DNA of 64,000 nucleotides from Candidatus Leucobacter sulfamidivorax (lineage in GTDB: Bacteria; Actinomycetota; Actinomycetes; Actinomycetales; Microbacteriaceae). The position numbers and the translations under genes are program-made. Below are positions 1,524 through 46,409 of this stretch, piece after piece (position 1 is the stretch's first letter; each line of letters starts with the position of its first letter). Where the stretch lies: positions 434,001-498,000 of the forward strand of contig QZLF01000003.1 of assembly GCA_016771945.1 (NCBI GenBank), read 5' to 3'. The notes beneath the pieces are model-generated. The model was not told where the DNA came from. It ran no database searches and worked only from the letters and a program-made list of their open reading frames with translations.

Positions 1524-2666
1524 TCAGCCGTGAACCTTCTGCAGATCCTCATCGCTCAGCGGCGTGGACCAGTCGATGTCGGGGGACATGCCGGCCTCGC
1601 AGCGGGGCGCCTTGTCGGCGAACGTGTCGATCGACACGAAGGGACGCACCATCCACGGCTCGGTAGTGGTCTCCCCCGTCACCGCTGCCACCAGGTGTCG
1701 GAAGGCGACGACGCCGTGCGTCTGGGAGCCGTCCCAGGAGAACAGCGGGAACTCCTTGTCCTGCCAGGCGCAGCCCACGCCGTTCGTGGTGTTCGCGTTG
1801 GCGAGGTAGGGCAGCTCCATGCCTGCCTCCTCGTAGGCCTCGAGAACCGCGAGATCGTACGCGCCGGCATCGGTGATCACCGCGTCGATGCGGCCGTGCT
1901 TGGCCAGCAGGCCGGTCATCACCCGCTTCTTCTCGACGGCGGAGTTGTTGGTCACCTGGTACTCGTCCTCGACGAGCTCGATGTCGGGGTAGGCCGCGAT
2001 GGCCTCCTTGAAGGCGTTGAAGGCCGCGACGCTCGAGGGCTGGCCCGGGGCGTTGCCGAGGAACACGACCGTGCCCGACTTCATGTGCTCGCCGAGCCAA
2101 TCCGCCCAACCCTGCGCGTAGGTGTCGTAGTCCTGCGAGACGTGCCCGACCACGTCCTGGCCGGCGACGCCGCCCGAGTTCGCGACGAAGGTCACCACCG
2201 GCACTCCGGCATCCATGGCCGCGCGGAAGGAGGGCACCTGCGCCTCACCGAAGATCGGAAGCGTGATGATGCCGTCGACGCCCTGCGCCACGAGCGAGTT
2301 CACGTCGGAGACGGCCTTCTGCTGGTCGACCTGGGCATCGATCATCTCGACGACGCCGATGTTGTCGCACTTGTCCGCCTCCTGCTGGATCAGCATGTGG
2401 ACGGCCTTCATCCAGGGGTTGGCGATGCCGACGGGGAAGGCCAGCGTGATGGGCTCGTCACCGCAGAGCTCCCGGATGTCGTAGGAGTCGATGACTTCCT
2501 GACCGCTCGTGAACTGCTGCAGCTCATCCGTCTGCACCTGGGAATCCCCATTGCCGTCCGGCGTGCTCGGGGTGTCGGTCGACGCCGTGGGAGCGCAGCC
2601 GGCCATCGCCACGCCGAGAGCGGCAACGGTCACCCCCATGGCGATTCGCATGCTCTTCTTACGCAT
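1524..2666 (-). CDS. Sugar-type ABC transporter substrate-binding lipoprotein
   Basis: A 380-residue extracellular solute receptor of the periplasmic-binding-protein type 1 class, delivering ligand to the ABC importer encoded next to it. A basic start (MRKKSMR), a hydrophobic stretch and a lipobox ending MAGC show a lipoprotein signal peptide; the mature chain begins with a Ser/Thr/Asp-rich linker. I chose the ATG at 2666 because AAAGGAC lies at ribosome-binding distance; an upstream in-frame start would bury the signal peptide. It is the first gene of the ABC operon, preceded by two copies of the 16-bp palindrome at 2751 and 2803. The ligand cannot be read from sequence. Confidence 0.9.
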   Translation of the reverse strand: MRKKSMRIAMGVTVAALGVAMAGCAPTASTDTPSTPDGNGDSQVQTDELQQFTSGQEVIDSYDIRELCGDEPITLAFPVGIANPWMKAVHMLIQQEADKCDNIGVVEMIDAQVDQQKAVSDVNSLVAQGVDGIITLPIFGEAQVPSFRAAMDAGVPVVTFVANSGGVAGQDVVGHVSQDYDTYAQGWADWLGEHMKSGTVVFLGNAPGQPSSVAAFNAFKEAIAAYPDIELVEDEYQVTNNSAVEKKRVMTGLLAKHGRIDAVITDAGAYDLAVLEAYEEAGMELPYLANANTTNGVGCAWQDKEFPLFSWDGSQTHGVVAFRHLVAAVTGETTTEPWMVRPFVSIDTFADKAPRCEAGMSPDIDWSTPLSDEDLQKVHG

Positions 2667-2750
2667 TACTGGTCCTTTCAACAATGGTGTCGTTACGGCA
2701 AGAGCGACCAGCACCATCGGATGGCCGCTCTGCGCACCTGAAGCCCCATA

Positions 2751-2766
2751 ACCAAACATTTGGTTG
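2751..2766. promoter_or_regulatory. Operator copy 1 of the 16-bp palindrome family
   Basis: Sequence ACCAAACATTTGGTTG, nearly a perfect inverted repeat (ACCAAA / TTTGGT). It is 85 bp upstream of the binding-protein start. On the minus strand a TTGACT hexamer lies just upstream (complement of 2774-2779), so the palindrome falls where it would overlap the core promoter, as expected for a repressor site. Four more copies lie at 2803, 3709, 6803 and 6916. The dyad resembles TetR-family operators in size and form; the regulator is not identified. Confidence 0.6.
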
Positions 2767-2802
2767 AGACTAGAGTCAATAGTGACGATGTGTCACCGGT
2801 TT

Positions 2803-2818
2803 GTCAAACATACGGTTG
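2803..2818. promoter_or_regulatory. Operator copy 2 of the 16-bp palindrome family
   Basis: Sequence GTCAAACATACGGTTG, a weaker copy, 52 bp (about five helical turns) from copy 1 and in the same gap upstream of the ABC binding-protein gene. It keeps the CAA-C half and the GGTTG half. The whole-turn spacing would allow two bound dimers to face the same side of the DNA. Confidence 0.45.
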
Positions 2819-2882
2819 GTAACTTTTCGATCACGCGAATCCGAGCCCGGCAGGGAACGGGTGGCGCGCGAAGCGCAGCGGA

Positions 2883-3644
2883 TCAGGCGTGCGCCGACGC
2901 GCCCCCGTCGACCGGCACGACCGCGCCGTTGACATAGCTCGCCGCATCGGAGAGCAGGAAGGCCACCACTTCGGCGACCTCCTGGGGCGTGGCCATACGA
3001 CCCATCGGCATCAGCGCGTTCAGCTCGTCGCGCTGCGCGGGCGTCATGCCTCCGACCATGCCCGTGTCCACGGTCCCCGGGGCAACCGCGTTCACGCGGA
3101 TCCCGTTGCGCACGAATTCCACCGCGGCACTGCGCGTCAGGCCGACGACGGCATGCTTGCTCGCCACATAGGCGGAGAGGTCGGGGGCAGCCCCGAGGCC
3201 TGCGCCGGATGCGGTGTTCACGATCGCACCCCGTCCGTGTTCCAGCATGTGCCGCAGCTCTGCGCGCATGCAGAGAGCCACCGCCCGGGTGTTGATGTTG
3301 ATGCTGCGATCCCACTGCTCCATAGGGAGCTCATGGAACTTCAGCGCGGGATGCAGCACACCGGCGTTGTTGTGGGCGAGGTCGAGCCCCCCGAACTCGC
3401 TCACCGCGAACTCCACCAGGGAGTCGACCTGATCCTCGTCCGTGACATCCACACGGCGGAAGAGCGCGCTGCCTCCGGCATCGCGGATCTCCGCCGCGAC
3501 GCGTTCGCCGGCATCGGCATTGAAGTCGCCGACGACCACGCTCGCCCCGCGCGACGCGAGGGTGCGGGCCACCGCCGCGCCGATACCGCCCGCCGCGCCG
3601 GTGACCAGCGCTACAAGACCCGCATGATTCGAGATCGAAGCCAT
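2883..3644 (-). CDS. SDR-family NAD(P)-dependent oxidoreductase
   Basis: A 253-residue classical short-chain dehydrogenase/reductase, soluble, probably oxidising or reducing an alcohol or ketone intermediate. The cofactor loop is TGAAGGIG, followed by NNAG, a Ser in the NTASG segment and the catalytic YVASK. The C-terminus ends in the usual VDGG motif. The start at 3644 is preceded by GGAGAGG; a longer in-frame start has no such site. It diverges from the flavin monooxygenase gene at 3853, and operator copy 3 lies inside its predicted promoter. The acidic residue in GDFNAD after strand 2 suggests NAD rather than NADP. Confidence 0.9.
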   Translation of the reverse strand: MASISNHAGLVALVTGAAGGIGAAVARTLASRGASVVVGDFNADAGERVAAEIRDAGGSALFRRVDVTDEDQVDSLVEFAVSEFGGLDLAHNNAGVLHPALKFHELPMEQWDRSININTRAVALCMRAELRHMLEHGRGAIVNTASGAGLGAAPDLSAYVASKHAVVGLTRSAAVEFVRNGIRVNAVAPGTVDTGMVGGMTPAQRDELNALMPMGRMATPQEVAEVVAFLLSDAASYVNGAVVPVDGGASAHA

Positions 3645-3708
3645 GTTTTCCGTTCCTCTCCGGTGAGCAACCGCCGGCACGTGCGAGCCGACGCCTTTCA
3701 AGAATTAT

Positions 3709-3724
3709 CAACCAAACGCTTGAC
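3709..3724. promoter_or_regulatory. Operator copy 3 within the SDR promoter
   Basis: On the minus strand this reads GTCAAGCGTTTGGTTG. It lies between a TTGTAA box (-35-like) and GATAAT (-10-like) that are 18 bp apart, so a bound protein would block RNA polymerase at the SDR promoter. The site is also about 130 bp upstream of the divergent monooxygenase start at 3853 and may control both. Confidence 0.6.
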
Positions 3725-3852
3725 AGATTACAAGCGAATCGGGACGATTGACTCTGACCGCACAGGGTTCACCGGCTGCAGCGGATCAGAATAGACAGAC
3801 AGGTGTGGCAAGCCTTCCCAGCTTGACATTCTTCCGAGGAAGTAAGGATGAA

Positions 3853-5007
3853 ATGAAGTTCTTCGAGTCACAGATGCGCTTCGGCATGTTCACCGGCCCC
3901 TACCACAAGCCCGGGAACAGTCCGACGGTATCGATCCGCCAAGACATCGAGATCATCCAGCAACTCGACCGACTCGGTTTCGACGAGGTCTGGATCGGCG
4001 AGCACCACTCCAGCGGCGTCAGCCCGCTCCCCTCGCCGGAGCTGCTGCTGGCAGCGGCGGCGGAGCGCACCGAGCGCATCAAGCTCGGCACCGGTGTCGT
4101 CTCGCTCCCCTATCACCACCCGCTCATGGTGGCGGATCGCATCGTGCAGCTGTCGCATCAGTCGAAGGGACGGGCGATCCTCGGGGTCGGCCCTGGCGCC
4201 CTGCTCCGCGACGCGAAGATGATCGGGCTCGACCCGCTGCAGAGCCGCCAGATCATGGAGGACTCGCTCGATGCCATCATCCGCCTGCTCAAGGGCGAGA
4301 CGGTGACCATGAAGAACGATCGCTTCGAACTCGACGAAGCCCGCCTGCAGTTCCTGCCGCACTCGGATTTCGATATCGCCACGGTGAGCGTGCTCTCCCC
4401 GGCCGGGCCGAAGCTCGCCGGCAAGTACGGCACCGGCATGATCTCGGTGGCCGCGACCGATCCCGCCGGCATCGAGCGCCTGGCGGGGCACTGGGAGATC
4501 TGGAAGGACGAGGCCGCGGCTTCGGGCCACATCGCATCGCGAGGCGACTGGCGCATGATGGGCCCGATGCACATCGCCGAGACGATGGAGCAGGCGCGCG
4601 AAGAGGTCAAGTACGCGCTCAAGGAGATCGAGACGCCACGATATCTGACGAACCCCGGGCCCTTCCCGGACTTCGACAATCTCGACAAGCTCATCGACGA
4701 CTGGAACGAAGCGGGCTCGGCCGTGATCGGCACGCCCGACATGGCGATCGCGCAGATCAACAGGGTCGCCGAGAAGTCCGGAGGCTTCGGGACCTTCCTC
4801 TTCATGGGCCACAACTGGGCGAACTTCCCCGCCACGTTGCGCAGCTGGGAGCTGCTGGCCGAGGAGGTGCTCCCGGTGTTCCAGGGGCAGTCGCAGCCCC
4901 TGATGCGGTCCTACAACGACGTGCTCACGACCGGCCGCGAGGGCGCCGACGTCAATTTCAAGGCGCAGACGCAGTACACCGAGCAGTACCAGGCCGGAAA
5001 GCGATGA
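3853..5007 (+). CDS. Luciferase-like (LLM class) flavin-dependent monooxygenase
   Basis: A 384-residue bacterial-luciferase-family enzyme that uses reduced FMN supplied by a partner reductase to oxygenate an organic substrate. Family features are the opening MRFGMFTGPYH, WIGEHHS near residue 55, the RIKLGTGVVSLPYHHP segment and LGVGPGALL. This pattern resembles the group that contains limonene and related terpenoid monooxygenases, by memory only. The ATG at 3853 has GGAAG upstream; an earlier in-frame ATG at 3748 would add a low-complexity tail. The small isomerase-like gene starts 70 bp downstream, probably in the same transcript. Confidence 0.88.
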   Translation: MKFFESQMRFGMFTGPYHKPGNSPTVSIRQDIEIIQQLDRLGFDEVWIGEHHSSGVSPLPSPELLLAAAAERTERIKLGTGVVSLPYHHPLMVADRIVQLSHQSKGRAILGVGPGALLRDAKMIGLDPLQSRQIMEDSLDAIIRLLKGETVTMKNDRFELDEARLQFLPHSDFDIATVSVLSPAGPKLAGKYGTGMISVAATDPAGIERLAGHWEIWKDEAAASGHIASRGDWRMMGPMHIAETMEQAREEVKYALKEIETPRYLTNPGPFPDFDNLDKLIDDWNEAGSAVIGTPDMAIAQINRVAEKSGGFGTFLFMGHNWANFPATLRSWELLAEEVLPVFQGQSQPLMRSYNDVLTTGREGADVNFKAQTQYTEQYQAGKR

Positions 5008-42084: not shown

Positions 42085-43797
42085 ATGACTCTCGGGCCGC
42101 TGATCGTGCAGAGCGACCACACCGTATTGCTGGAGGCCGCGCACCCCGACGCCGACGAGGCGCGGCACGCGATCGCCGTCTTCGCCGAGCTCGAGCGCGC
42201 GCCCGAGCACATCCACACCTACCGTGTGACGCGGTTGGGCCTCTGGAACGCGCGCGCCGCCGGCCACACCGCCGAGGAGATCGTCGAGACACTCGACCGC
42301 TACGCGAAGTTCCCCGTGCCGGCCGGCGTCTCGGGAGAGATCGCCGAGACCATGCGCCGCTACGGCAGGCTCACGATCGACACGGACCAAGGCGCTCAAA
42401 GCAATGCATCGCATTGCGCGCCGTATGTCCCGAGCCCGCCCGCGGGCTCGGGAGGGGGCAACGACGGACCGAGGCGACTCGTCCTCCGATCCGACGACGC
42501 CTCGATCCTGCGCGAGGTGGCGAGCGCGAAGCGGATCGCCCCCCTGCTGGGCGCCCGCATCGACGAGCACAGCTACGCCGTCGAGCCCTGGGCGCGCGGC
42601 CAGCTCAAGCAGGAGCTCGTCGCACGAGGCTGGCCGGCCGAGGACCTCGCGGGCTACACCCCCGGCGAACCCCTCGACATCGAGCTCGCCGAGGGCGAGT
42701 GGCACCTGCGCGACTACCAGCGCCAGGCCGTCGACCGCTTCGCCGAGGGCGGGTCCGGCGTCGTGGTGCTTCCCTGCGGCGCGGGCAAGACGATCGTCGG
42801 GGCGGGCGCCATGGCGGCGGTCGGCGCGAAGACCCTGATCCTCGTCACCAACACGGTCTCGGCGCGCCAATGGCGCGACGAGCTGATCCGCCGCACCAGC
42901 CTCACCGAGGACGAGATCGGCGAGTACTCGGGGCAGGTGAAGGAGGTGAAGCCCGTCACCATCGCCACCTACCAGATCCTGACGAGCCGCCGGAAGGGCG
43001 AGTACGCGCACCTCTCGCTGCTGAACGCCCAGGACTGGGGCCTCATCGTCTACGACGAGGTGCACCTGCTGCCGGCACCGGTGTTCAAGCTCACCGCCGA
43101 GCTGCAGGCGCGCCGCCGCATCGGGCTCACCGCGACGCTCGTGCGCGAGGACGGACGCGAGGGCGACGTGTTCAGCCTCATCGGCCCGAAGCGCTACGAC
43201 GCGCCCTGGAAGGAGATCGAGGCGCAGGGCTTCATCGCGCCCGCGGTCTGCTTCGAGGTGCGCATCGAGCTCGCCGAGAGCGAGCGCTTCGACTACTCGG
43301 TGGCCGAGGATCAGGAGCGGTACCGGATCGCGGCGAGCGCCGGAGCGAAGCAGTCGGTGGCGCGGCGGATCATCGCGAAGCACCCCGGCGAGAGCGTGCT
43401 CGTGATCGGCCAGTACATCGACCAGCTCGAGGCGATGGCCGAGGCGCTGAACGCTCCGCTCATCACCGGGCAGACGCCGGTCGACGAGCGGGAGCGGCTC
43501 TTCGCGGCGTTCCGCGCCGGCGAGGAGAAGCTGCTCGTCGTGTCGAAGGTCGCGAACTTCTCGGTGGATCTGCCCGACGCCTCGGTGGCGATCCAGATCT
43601 CGGGATCCTTCGGCTCGCGCCAGGAGGAGGCGCAGCGCCTCGGGCGCCTGCTGCGGCCCAAGGCGAACGGCGGATCCGCCTCCTTCTACACTCTGGTGAC
43701 CCGGGACACGGTGGATCAGGACTTCGCGCAGAACCGCCAGCGCTTCCTCGCCGAGCAGGGGTACTCGTACACCATCATGGACGCCGATCAGGTCTGA
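42085..43797 (+). CDS. XPB-type DNA repair helicase
   Basis: A 570-residue superfamily 2 DNA helicase related to archaeal and eukaryotic XPB. It shows the N-terminal damage-recognition region, Q-like motif LRDYQRQAV, Walker A LPCGAGKT, DEVH box in IVYDEVHLLPA, TAT motif GLTATLVRED, and motif VI QRLGRLLRPK. It probably acts in nucleotide excision repair. Residues about 103-132 (DQGAQSNASHCAPYVP onward) are an in-frame insertion encoded by palindrome-rich DNA, placed before LVLRSDD. TAAAAT at 42071 and AGGAAG precede the ATG. Confidence 0.93.
   Translation: MTLGPLIVQSDHTVLLEAAHPDADEARHAIAVFAELERAPEHIHTYRVTRLGLWNARAAGHTAEEIVETLDRYAKFPVPAGVSGEIAETMRRYGRLTIDTDQGAQSNASHCAPYVPSPPAGSGGGNDGPRRLVLRSDDASILREVASAKRIAPLLGARIDEHSYAVEPWARGQLKQELVARGWPAEDLAGYTPGEPLDIELAEGEWHLRDYQRQAVDRFAEGGSGVVVLPCGAGKTIVGAGAMAAVGAKTLILVTNTVSARQWRDELIRRTSLTEDEIGEYSGQVKEVKPVTIATYQILTSRRKGEYAHLSLLNAQDWGLIVYDEVHLLPAPVFKLTAELQARRRIGLTATLVREDGREGDVFSLIGPKRYDAPWKEIEAQGFIAPAVCFEVRIELAESERFDYSVAEDQERYRIAASAGAKQSVARRIIAKHPGESVLVIGQYIDQLEAMAEALNAPLITGQTPVDERERLFAAFRAGEEKLLVVSKVANFSVDLPDASVAIQISGSFGSRQEEAQRLGRLLRPKANGGSASFYTLVTRDTVDQDFAQNRQRFLAEQGYSYTIMDADQV
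42401..42452. repeat. Palindrome-rich in-frame insertion inside the XPB gene
   Basis: Two perfect hairpins sit side by side: GCAATGC-ATC-GCATTGC (42401-42417) and CCCGAGCCCGC-CC-GCGGGCTCGGG (42429-42452). They encode a Ser/Pro/Gly-rich loop unlike the rest of the helicase, between LTIDTD and LVLRSDD, where I would expect the two to be nearly adjacent. It looks like a short repeat element that inserted without breaking the frame. Confidence 0.6.
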
Positions 43798-44164
43798 GGA
43801 CCCGCGCGGGGGAGCGAATGGGGTTCCCCTCGCAGCGTCCCAACGCTCTGTGCGTTCATGCGGGGTATTCCCCTGCTCGCTTCGTGTCGCGACGCTGTGC
43901 CCTCCCAAACAGCGTCCCGCAACTCAGCGCGTTCATGCGCCCCAGCCTGTGCACTCGATGTAGACGCCGGATGCCGGATCGCTTCGGGGGTGGCATGGCC
44001 TCTGCGGAACTTGGCCGGGTCTGGCGGGAGCGGTCGGTTCCAGCGCCAAGCGCTGGAACCGACCGCGGATGGAGAGTTCCGCAGAGGCCATGCCGTCCCC
44101 GAAGCAGCCGACCAACTTCCAGCAGACTCATAGCGAACTGTCAGAGACTGGGGCGCATGAACGC
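43798..44164. repeat. Nested inverted-repeat element upstream of the response regulator gene
   Basis: Three nested pairs of arms: outer 17 bp at 43929-43945 with 44148-44164 (perfect), middle 31 bp at 43981-44011 with 44075-44105 (29 of 31), and inner 17 bp at 44030-44046 with 44050-44066 (perfect, CAA loop). A second, imperfect copy of the outer arm region lies at 43833-43862. The right outer arm contains the ATG of the response regulator gene. No protein-like frame is present. It has the look of a MITE or BIME-type element. Confidence 0.8.
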
Positions 44165-44858
44165 ACAGAACAAGGGCCCCCGGATCCTCATCGTCGACGA
44201 CGAGCCCAGCATCCGCGAGCTGCTGAGCACCAGCCTGCGCTTCGCGGGCTTCGGCGTGCGCGCAGTCGCCAACGGCGCGCAGACCATCTCCGCCGTGCTC
44301 GAGGAGGAGCCGGATCTCATCATCCTCGACGTCATGCTGCCCGACATGAACGGCTTCAGCGTGACCAAGCGCCTGCGCAGCGCGGGCTACACCGCTCCGA
44401 TCCTCTTCCTCACGGCGAAGGACGACACCGAGGACAAGGTCATGGGCCTCACCGTCGGCGGGGACGACTACGTGACGAAGCCCTTCAGCCTCGACGAGAT
44501 CATCGCGCGCATCAAGGCGATCCTGCGTCGCACGATCCAGGAGGATGAGGAGGCCGTGCTCGAGACCGGCCCCATCGTGCTCGACCAGGATACACACGAG
44601 GTGCACGTGAACGGCACCCCGGTCGAGCTGAGCCCGACCGAGTTCAAGCTGCTGCGGTACCTGATGCAGAACGCGAACCGCGTGCTGTCGAAGGCGCAGA
44701 TCCTCGACCACGTGTGGGAGTACGACTTCAACGGCGATGCGGGCATCGTCGAGTCGTACATCTCGTACCTGCGGCGCAAGCTCGATCCGCTCACCGAGGA
44801 GTCGCTGATCCAGACGAAGCGCGGCTTCGGCTACATGCTGAAGACCGACGTGAAGTAG
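44157..44858 (+). CDS. OmpR-family two-component response regulator
   Basis: A 233-residue regulator. The receiver domain has the acidic pair in VDDEPS, the phosphorylated Asp in LIILDVMLPDMNG, Thr in FLTAKD and Lys in VTKPFSLDE. The C-terminal winged helix runs from VELSPTEFKLLRYL to TKRGFGYML. It resembles the TcrA/TrcR/MprA group of actinobacteria. It is followed 6 bp later by its histidine kinase. Its start codon lies in the outer arm of the large inverted repeat, so mRNA folding could limit translation. Confidence 0.93.
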   Translation: MNAQNKGPRILIVDDEPSIRELLSTSLRFAGFGVRAVANGAQTISAVLEEEPDLIILDVMLPDMNGFSVTKRLRSAGYTAPILFLTAKDDTEDKVMGLTVGGDDYVTKPFSLDEIIARIKAILRRTIQEDEEAVLETGPIVLDQDTHEVHVNGTPVELSPTEFKLLRYLMQNANRVLSKAQILDHVWEYDFNGDAGIVESYISYLRRKLDPLTEESLIQTKRGFGYMLKTDVK

Positions 44859-44864
44859 TCGGCC

Positions 44865-46409
44865 GTGGCTCAGAGCCCGGCCCCGGCGGATCCGGATGTG
44901 ATCGACGAGGAGGAGATCGAGGCGCAGGAGCGCCGCAGCCTCTCCCAGCGCTGGGCGGACATCACCCTGCGCACGAAGATCACCGGGGTGACGGTGTTCA
45001 TCCTGTCGCTCGGGCTCATCGTCGCCGGCGTCGGCACGATGTCGTTCCTGCGACCGCAGCTGATCGGGGTGCAGGACACCGAACTGCGCCAGCTGCGCAA
45101 CGACCCCGCGAGCGCGCTCGCCCCGGGCGCCAACACGGGCGCGCTGACGAGCGACGACGTGCGCGGAGCCGACAGCCGGTACTACATCGCCGTGCTCGAC
45201 CTCGACGGCGAGCTGCTCTACGACAACCAGCGCAACGCCAGCACGCGCAGCGCCCCCACCCTGCCGGCGATCACCCCCGACTGGGCGCTCGACAAGGGCG
45301 GCGAGGCCTTCCCGCTGCAGAGCAAGGACGGGATCGAGTGGCGCACCATCGCGATCCCGATCATGGCGGGCGGCGGACAGCCCGGCGGCACGCTCGTGAT
45401 CGCCTCGTCGACCGCGGTCACCAATCAGGTGATGACCCGCTTCATCGTCATCTTCAGCGGCTTCGGCATCGCGGTGCTGCTGCTCGGGGCGGCGCTGACC
45501 CGCATCCTCGTGACCAACACCTTCGCCCCGCTCGCCGAGGTCGAGCGGACCGCACTCGAGATCTCGCGCGGCGACTTCTCGAAGCGCATCATGGTCTCGA
45601 GCCCGAACACCGAGGTGGGACATCTCGGGCAATCGCTCAACGTCATGCTCGACCACATCGACGATTCGTTCTCCGAGCGGGCGCGCACGATCGAGCAGAT
45701 GCGGCGCTTCATCGGCGACGCCGGGCACGAGCTGCGCACGCCGCTCGTCTCGGTGCGCGGCTACGCCGAGCTCTACCGGCTGGGCGCCCTGGACGACGAG
45801 GAGCAGCTCGGACAGGCGATGGAGCGCATCGAGAAGGAGGCGATCCGCATGGGATCGCTGGTCGAGGATCTGCTCGCGCTCGCGCGGCTCGACGAGCGGC
45901 GCCCGCTCGAGCTCGCCCCCCTGCCGTTGAACAATTTCGCCGCGGACGCCGCGCTCGACATGCGGGCGCAGGACCCGGAACGCGAGTTCTCGGTGATCGA
46001 GGATCCGAGCGAGCCGCAGGTGCTCGGCGATGAGCACAAGGTGCGGCAGGTCATGACGAATCTGCTGGGCAACGCCCTGCGCTACAGCCCCGAGGGCAGC
46101 CCGGTCGAGATCGCGGTCTCCGTCGACGCGTCGCGGGGAGTCGGGGTGTTCGAGATCATCGACCACGGCGAGGGCATCCCGGAGCAGCTGCGGTCGAAGA
46201 TCTTCGACCGCTTCTGGCGGGCCGACACCTCGCGCAACCGCGAGACCGGCGGCTCGGGCCTCGGCCTCTCGATCGTGCAGTCGATCGTCGACGCGCACCG
46301 CGGCTCGGTGCGGGCGCTCGAGACGCCCGGCGGCGGGGCGACCTTCCGGGTCGAGCTGCCGCTCGCGCCGGCATCGGACGACACGGTGCCGCTGCCGCGG
46401 CTGCGGTGA
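44865..46409 (+). CDS. Sensor histidine kinase
   Basis: A 514-residue membrane sensor. A cytoplasmic start is followed by a membrane helix (TGVTVFILSLGLIVAGVG), an extracellular domain of about 125 residues, a second helix (FIVIFSGFGIAVLLLGAAL), a HAMP linker, the H box GDAGHELRTPLVSVRGYAE, and an ATPase domain with N box LLGNALRYS, DHGEGIP and GGSGLGLSIV. Start codon GTG. It should phosphorylate the response regulator encoded just upstream; the signal is unknown. Confidence 0.93.
   Translation: MAQSPAPADPDVIDEEEIEAQERRSLSQRWADITLRTKITGVTVFILSLGLIVAGVGTMSFLRPQLIGVQDTELRQLRNDPASALAPGANTGALTSDDVRGADSRYYIAVLDLDGELLYDNQRNASTRSAPTLPAITPDWALDKGGEAFPLQSKDGIEWRTIAIPIMAGGGQPGGTLVIASSTAVTNQVMTRFIVIFSGFGIAVLLLGAALTRILVTNTFAPLAEVERTALEISRGDFSKRIMVSSPNTEVGHLGQSLNVMLDHIDDSFSERARTIEQMRRFIGDAGHELRTPLVSVRGYAELYRLGALDDEEQLGQAMERIEKEAIRMGSLVEDLLALARLDERRPLELAPLPLNNFAADAALDMRAQDPEREFSVIEDPSEPQVLGDEHKVRQVMTNLLGNALRYSPEGSPVEIAVSVDASRGVGVFEIIDHGEGIPEQLRSKIFDRFWRADTSRNRETGGSGLGLSIVQSIVDAHRGSVRALETPGGGATFRVELPLAPASDDTVPLPRLR

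Follow-up and report, generated by a model that had tools for sequence, protein, structure and literature searches.

The gap between an XPB-type DNA repair helicase gene and an OmpR-type response regulator gene of Candidatus Leucobacter sulfamidivorax contains a nested inverted repeat, whose outer and inner arm pairs differ in origin and do not form one single element. The inner two pairs (43981-44105) constitute a single copy of H, as we call a dispersed and seemingly undescribed structured hairpin whose stems covary strongly and which is located mainly at the 3' ends of genes and rarely between divergent genes. The outer pair is a more local feature that involves the start of the regulator gene. 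A striking fold across a start codon can thus be two unrelated features side by side. All positions refer to the window, i.e. the whole stretch of 64,000 nucleotides that was analysed, and the features discussed below are collected in Table 1.

Table 1. Features of the helicase-regulator locus and parts of the nested inverted repeat (window positions).
Feature	Position	Strand	Remarks
XPB-type DNA repair helicase, upstream gene	42085-43797	+	NF045503, 845 bits
Repeat M, copy 1	43833-43862	+	3' half is the regulator start reversed, 16/16 nt
Repeat M, copy 2	43910-43939	+	80% identical to copy 1
Left outer arm, overlapping M copy 2	43924-43951	+	above chance relative to shuffles
H outer stem, 5' arm, 31 nt	43981-44011	+	94% complementary to 44075-44105
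H internal loop, long conserved strand, TGGCCGGGTCTGGCGGGA	44012-44029	+	alignment A1, 45 copies
H inner stem, 5' arm, 17 nt	44030-44046	+	100% complementary to 44050-44066
H inner stem, 3' arm	44050-44066	+	
H internal loop, short conserved strand, GGATGGAG	44067-44074	+	
H outer stem, 3' arm	44075-44105	+	
Conserved block before the regulator ATG	44117-44156	+	recognisable in 25/25 genus genomes examined
Right outer arm, spanning the regulator's native leader and first codons	44142-44169	+	
OmpR-type response regulator, 233 aa	44157-44858	+	Response_reg and Trans_reg_C
Sensor histidine kinase, directly after the regulator	44865-46409	+	HAMP/HisKA/HATPase_c, GTG start
Innermost arm pair	44030-44046/44050-44066		17 nt, 100% complementary
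Middle arm pair	43981-44011/44075-44105		31 nt, 94% complementary
Outermost arm pair	43924-43951/44142-44169		28 nt, 86% complementary

The helicase-to-regulator gap comprises 359 bases, and all three nested arm pairs that had been reported in the initial annotation are present here, although the outer pair measures 28 nt and not 17. The placement of the regulator's start codon inside the right outer arm was borne out as well (ATG at 44157-44159). The predicted RNA fold of 43900-44180 has an energy of -167 kcal/mol, compared to -113.6 +/- 5.2 kcal/mol in 200 dinucleotide shuffles, none of which was as low (z -10.3). The response regulator stays under the curated cut-off in each of the 25 NCBIfam models among the matches listed.

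The left outer arm overlaps the second copy of a short repeat, M. The left arm does repeat the gene start in reverse, as had been proposed (24/28 nt, above chance in shuffles), and so does the further copy noted at 43833, whose positions 43847-43862 match 44154-44169 without a mismatch (16 nt, 100%). For the outer match the score is 17, a value reached in none of 500 shuffles (maximum 16), while the score does not exceed 11 in 202 further pieces of the window, each of 308 nt, searched on both strands; the 11-nt word GCGTTCATGCG taken alone is not rare if one mismatch is allowed (6 matches versus 3.0 expected). Elsewhere in the same genome only weak partial matches to M were found, i.e. M is not dispersed, and one relative (G065) carries one similar copy of M at the same locus. 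The M copy of G065 agrees with the regulator start of the window at 17/17 positions and with G065's own regulator start at 13/17. The simplest reading is that the gene start was duplicated locally in inverted orientation in a common ancestor, giving rise to M, which was later reworked. The suggestion that the element had copied the 5' end of the gene when it formed therefore holds for the outer arms, with M above chance and common to G065, and fails for the inner hairpin, which did not form from the gene start, being a member of a dispersed family with stems that vary between copies.

H has three parts, namely a long stem whose sequence is free, an asymmetric internal loop that is conserved, and an inner hairpin. 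The gap, used as a query in similarity searches, matches short stretches in other genomes of the genus, several of which share two strands, TGGCCGGGTCTGGCGGGAGC and GCGGATGGA, with stems around and inside them that vary from copy to copy. A pattern scan of 84,980 species genomes (GGTCTGGCGGGAGCN{4,34}GCGGATGG) matched at least 120 stretches. Most of the 80 named pattern matches listed belong to Cellulosimicrobium, and the other genera among the matches listed include Luteimicrobium, Isoptericola, Actinomyces, Knoellia, Janibacter, Nostocoides, Pseudactinotalea and Leucobacter; a few matches, e.g. in Amycolatopsis (L133) and Corynebacterium (L131), look like chance. The core pattern itself sets no condition on the outer stem, and a stem of at least 10 bp within the 30-nt flanks was found in 117 of the 123 distinct pattern matches listed.

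For the analysis of covariation, 45 copies including that of the window were picked by hand from 66 sequences, from which rows with N and rows more than 80% alike had been removed, and aligned with MAFFT (alignment A1). In A1 the long loop strand is invariant or nearly so from GGG to AGC, with its first bases variable, and GCGGATGG is present in 45/45 copies, though those letters belonged to the search pattern. The covariation score of A1 is 0.573 versus 0.181 for shuffled alignments; for each of the 21 outer pairs the alignment includes changes on both sides (double-changed cells: 350, shuffled: 144), and if the partner is slid by one column the share of paired cells falls from 77% to 41-42%, a share that leans upward because the copies were hand-picked and some with poorer stems (e.g. 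L038, L057, L092) were left out, as was the false-looking L133. A second alignment, A2, comprises 62 matches in 60 stretches from a search of the order, 61 of which are absent from A1 (2 of the 62 were already among the earlier loci). Its rows were aligned to the model, and, being fitted to it, they give a covariation score of 0.860 versus 0.176 (double-changed cells: 645, shuffled: 223).

Two models, R1 and R2, were built from A1 and A2, respectively. R2, which contains no copy from this genus, finds the window copy (43990-44096; score: 73.8 bits, E-value: 1.7e-13) as its only match in the window up to an E-value of 1; R1 scores the same copy with 80.2 bits, in part by construction, because A1 includes it. 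R1 matches 18 of the 54 genomes of the genus. The search of the genome for further copies, which the initial annotation had called for, gave four R1 matches (the window copy, C1:848072, C3:277830 and C1:1353437). In the order sample R1 (E-value up to 1e-6) detects H in at least 28/396 genomes and at least 13/110 genera, a lower bound because only 10 candidates were scored per genome, and in the phylum sample, with the same 10 candidates per genome and hence insensitive, in at least 1/396. Eleven genomes chosen as H-bearing contain 37, 83, 14, 4, 7, 7, 26, 6, 5, 4 and 4 matches. A shorter sub-type of H, with TGGNTGGGTCTGGC(A/G)GC, an inner hairpin, GC(C/T)GGA and long perfect stems, is represented by C3:277830-277908 (L287) and C1:1353437-1353515 (L288) as well as by L226 and L235-L238. 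Separately, L312, L313, L319 and L038 carry a different Leucobacter inverted repeat (GTCATCCTGCG ... GCAG(A/G)ATGAC), also located in gaps between genes.

An Rfam search of six loci up to an E-value of 1 revealed no relevant family; the only two hits (mir-H7 and mir-1249) were both far below the gathering scores. No description of H was recognised in the titles and abstract openings of the literature considered, and the occurrence of 13 core letters in one Chrysanthemum paper was taken as chance. Viral contigs contain no match to the H core pattern, and 12 viral matches to a short variant, which might have hinted at a phage origin, look like chance and are devoid of a matching outer stem. No similarity match to the window copy was found in plasmids.

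The neighbourhood of the H copies was characterised with gene calls from a simple custom gene caller, after removal of six locus ids from the position table as chance or coding matches (L102, L131, L174, L197, L108 and L194). The 117 remaining rows comprise 33 copies between convergent genes, 35 in codirectional antisense, 17 in codirectional sense and 3 in divergent arrangement, in addition to 20 inside a called ORF and 9 at an edge; the other gaps of at least 60 bases in the same loci (n=209) are 27 convergent, 59 divergent and 123 codirectional. A non-redundant set of 67 copies, without weak-stem copies and near-identical arms, exhibits the distribution 23 convergent, 23 codirectional antisense, 12 codirectional sense, 3 divergent and 6 edge. 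The corresponding numbers for a second non-redundant set of 43 copies, from which 16 redundant rows and one weak stem were dropped and two extra hits (L407 and L379) left uncounted, are 15, 12, 10, 2 and 4, against a background of just 20 gaps. If the right-hand gene faces H, its stop codon lies 24-38 bases from the stem (medians in the two non-redundant sets). The window copy has the less common, codirectional sense arrangement, 183 nt from the XPB stop codon. In locus L152 three copies of H occur within 2.4 kb (2059-4423), of which the first two are separated by a 579-aa ORF, while a repeat about 200 bases long surrounds the last two.

The median stem length is 28 bp (67 copies). A T tract, defined as at least 4 T in the 8 nt after the stem, occurs in 0/67 copies on the H strand and in 3/67 on the opposite strand, therefore H is not a canonical intrinsic terminator. 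In the 12 nt after the stem T makes up 21% on the opposite strand and 8% on the H strand (n=67), and the second set displays the same excess (20% vs 8%). Wobble pairs in the outer stem, read on the H strand, include 56 GU versus 25 AC in the set of 67 (P-value 7.5e-4) and 40 GU versus 19 AC in the second set, which was picked with the structure model and is possibly biased. GU exceeds AC in all five context groups, with P < 0.05 in the codirectional antisense group alone (14 to 4), and the inner stem, counted after removal of 18 of 151 copies with a weak stem, exhibits no such bias (11 GU versus 9 AC). The excess of GU pairs is a hint of single-stranded folding of the H strand; however, the nearest gene 3' end usually reads the strand opposite to H, at odds with the direction of this bias.

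H copies probably also exhibit mobile behaviour, with homogenised copies, copies nested in copies and arms that change together. In one Cellulosimicrobium genome all 17 fetched copies have the same hairpin and split into 12 and 5 by one base beside the loop, and their flanks are just partly alike. At three of these places the H of another genome has different stems, and both flanks are 78-89% identical across genomes over 591-1088 bases, in a locus comparison whose grouping is rough (one group joins different loci of distant genera). The right flanks of the homogenised copies (L270-L286) contain short head-to-tail repeats like ACCACGGCTCTACCTCG. At the 3' end of exoA, H or a variant was found by position in 9 of the 54 genomes of the genus, and in three species (G045, G017 and G041; loci L058, L069 and L220) one H copy lies in reverse orientation within the inner hairpin of a second H; G052 seems to retain the remains of a nest of this kind. 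The stem that encloses the inner copy is homologous between G045 and G017. Four differences between them, including a deletion of one base, occur in both arms alike, and each arm has one additional difference that is unmatched. We infer copying between the arms of H from this comparison, because matching deletions are hard to obtain by independent mutation. Inspection by eye of exoA in 50 of the 54 genomes revealed no plain hairpin with the same stem in relatives devoid of H, which is weak evidence (the stop finder missed two rows and several times hit the neighbouring gene).

H shares features with several known systems. REP/BIME elements and REPINs with their RAYT are dispersed intergenic palindromes that form hairpins and lie mostly 3' to genes, and H is likewise dispersed, intergenic, hairpin-forming and mostly located 3' to genes, with 4 to 83 matches per genome in the 11 chosen H-bearing genomes, but its stems are free and its internal loop is conserved. 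The lack of a Y1_Tnp protein (PF01797) in the 12/12 H-bearing genomes searched, with 5/14 control genomes positive, speaks against membership of H in the REP/RAYT group. Like intrinsic (Rho-independent) terminators, H is a GC-rich hairpin at gene ends, with convergent pairs over-represented, but with the long stem, the lack of a T tract and an internal loop common to several genera. MITEs and similar repeats are small, dispersed and non-coding, and H too is small and non-coding, with near-identical copies within one genome (the hairpin shared by 17/17), but conservation in H resides in the internal loop rather than in the ends. With the structured RNAs of Rfam it shares covarying stems around conserved loop nucleotides, but has no relevant match in the six loci.

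The leader of the regulator was compared in 25 of the 54 genomes of the genus. The block ahead of the regulator start has the form TTCCAGC..TTCATAGC..AAC..TCAGAGACTG..CATGA and is likely, judging from its conservation, the regulator's own promoter and leader. The 420 bases before the regulator (340 in L006) contain the H core in 1 of the 25 genomes, that of the window, and lack it in the other 24; since the block of about 40 bases is recognisably conserved in genomes without H, what look like the native signals of the regulator are located downstream of the hairpin. In G008, where the XPB gene is upstream too, the gap measures 77 bases and lacks H. In G065, which is not among the 25, the corresponding gap contains H and one M copy, and there H is inverted and located on the opposite side of M. 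Within the conserved block the motifs TTCCAGC and TCATAGC resemble each other and are spaced by about one helical turn, as are OmpR-type sites, and the pair could serve autoregulation.

The initial view was that the nested repeat sequesters the start codon of the regulator and controls its translation through mRNA folding. The fold is very stable and the ATG is indeed inside the right outer arm, yet the leader of about 40 nt is recognisably kept in 25/25 genomes, 24 of them without H at this place, H ends 11 nt before the conserved block, and in G065 it is elsewhere and reversed; we therefore consider start-codon control very unlikely. A new class of structured RNA read from the H strand, such as a regulator, a ribozyme or a ligand binder, would fit the conserved internal loop with free stems, the GU excess in all five context groups and the lack of an Rfam family in the loci searched. 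Such an RNA would not be expected to have an inner stem without GU bias, to be usually antisense to the nearest gene end, or to occur in many copies per genome in some taxa, and on the sequence evidence we find this explanation unlikely, though less so than start-codon control.

Our preferred reading, in which we place about even confidence, is that H may be a dispersed, structure-conserved element that acts at the transcript end of the neighbouring gene, either terminator-like or protecting the 3'-UTR. H would act at or after the end of the transcript, its internal loop would be read by a partner factor, and the stem arms would be renewed as a pair, either through copying between the arms or because pairing is under selection. 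The window copy, being located between the XPB gene and the promoter region of the regulator, would most likely end or shield the helicase transcripts, and it would not fold over the regulator start codon in the normal transcript. It is possible, if rather improbable, that H is chiefly a non-autonomous mobile element, a new type of hairpin with no host function that enters or overwrites other hairpins. This would account for the hairpin that is identical at 17/17 places save for one loop-adjacent base in partly similar flanks, for the three places with other stems within 78-89% identical flanks, for the reversed H nested in H at exoA in three species, for the patchy spread (28/396 genomes in the order sample and 1/396 in the phylum sample, both lower bounds) and for the reversed, displaced H of G065 at the regulator locus. 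However, H or a variant adjoins exoA in 9/54 genomes of the genus, the conservation of the loop and the covariation of the stems resemble the outcome of selection, a transposase (of the Y1 type, the one searched for) is absent from 12/12 genomes, viral contigs and plasmids gave no core-pattern match and no similarity hit, respectively, and no empty site with clean borders was seen among the loci compared.

A further speculation, which we put forward tentatively and regard as more doubtful than the action at transcript ends, is that H could be a self-spreading structured hairpin of which the loop alone is fixed, which invades hairpins at gene ends, including its own copies, and whose arms are rewritten pairwise by copying. 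If so, perfect stems would persist while the stem sequence turns over, and H would link transcript ends, a loop-recognising factor and the correction of palindromes. Gene ends in Actinobacteria are less well understood than those in model bacteria, and a dispersed hairpin that covaries in its stems, keeps its internal loop fixed and recurs at gene ends in several genera provides a direct handle on them, as well as on how long perfect palindromes persist and move in genomes.
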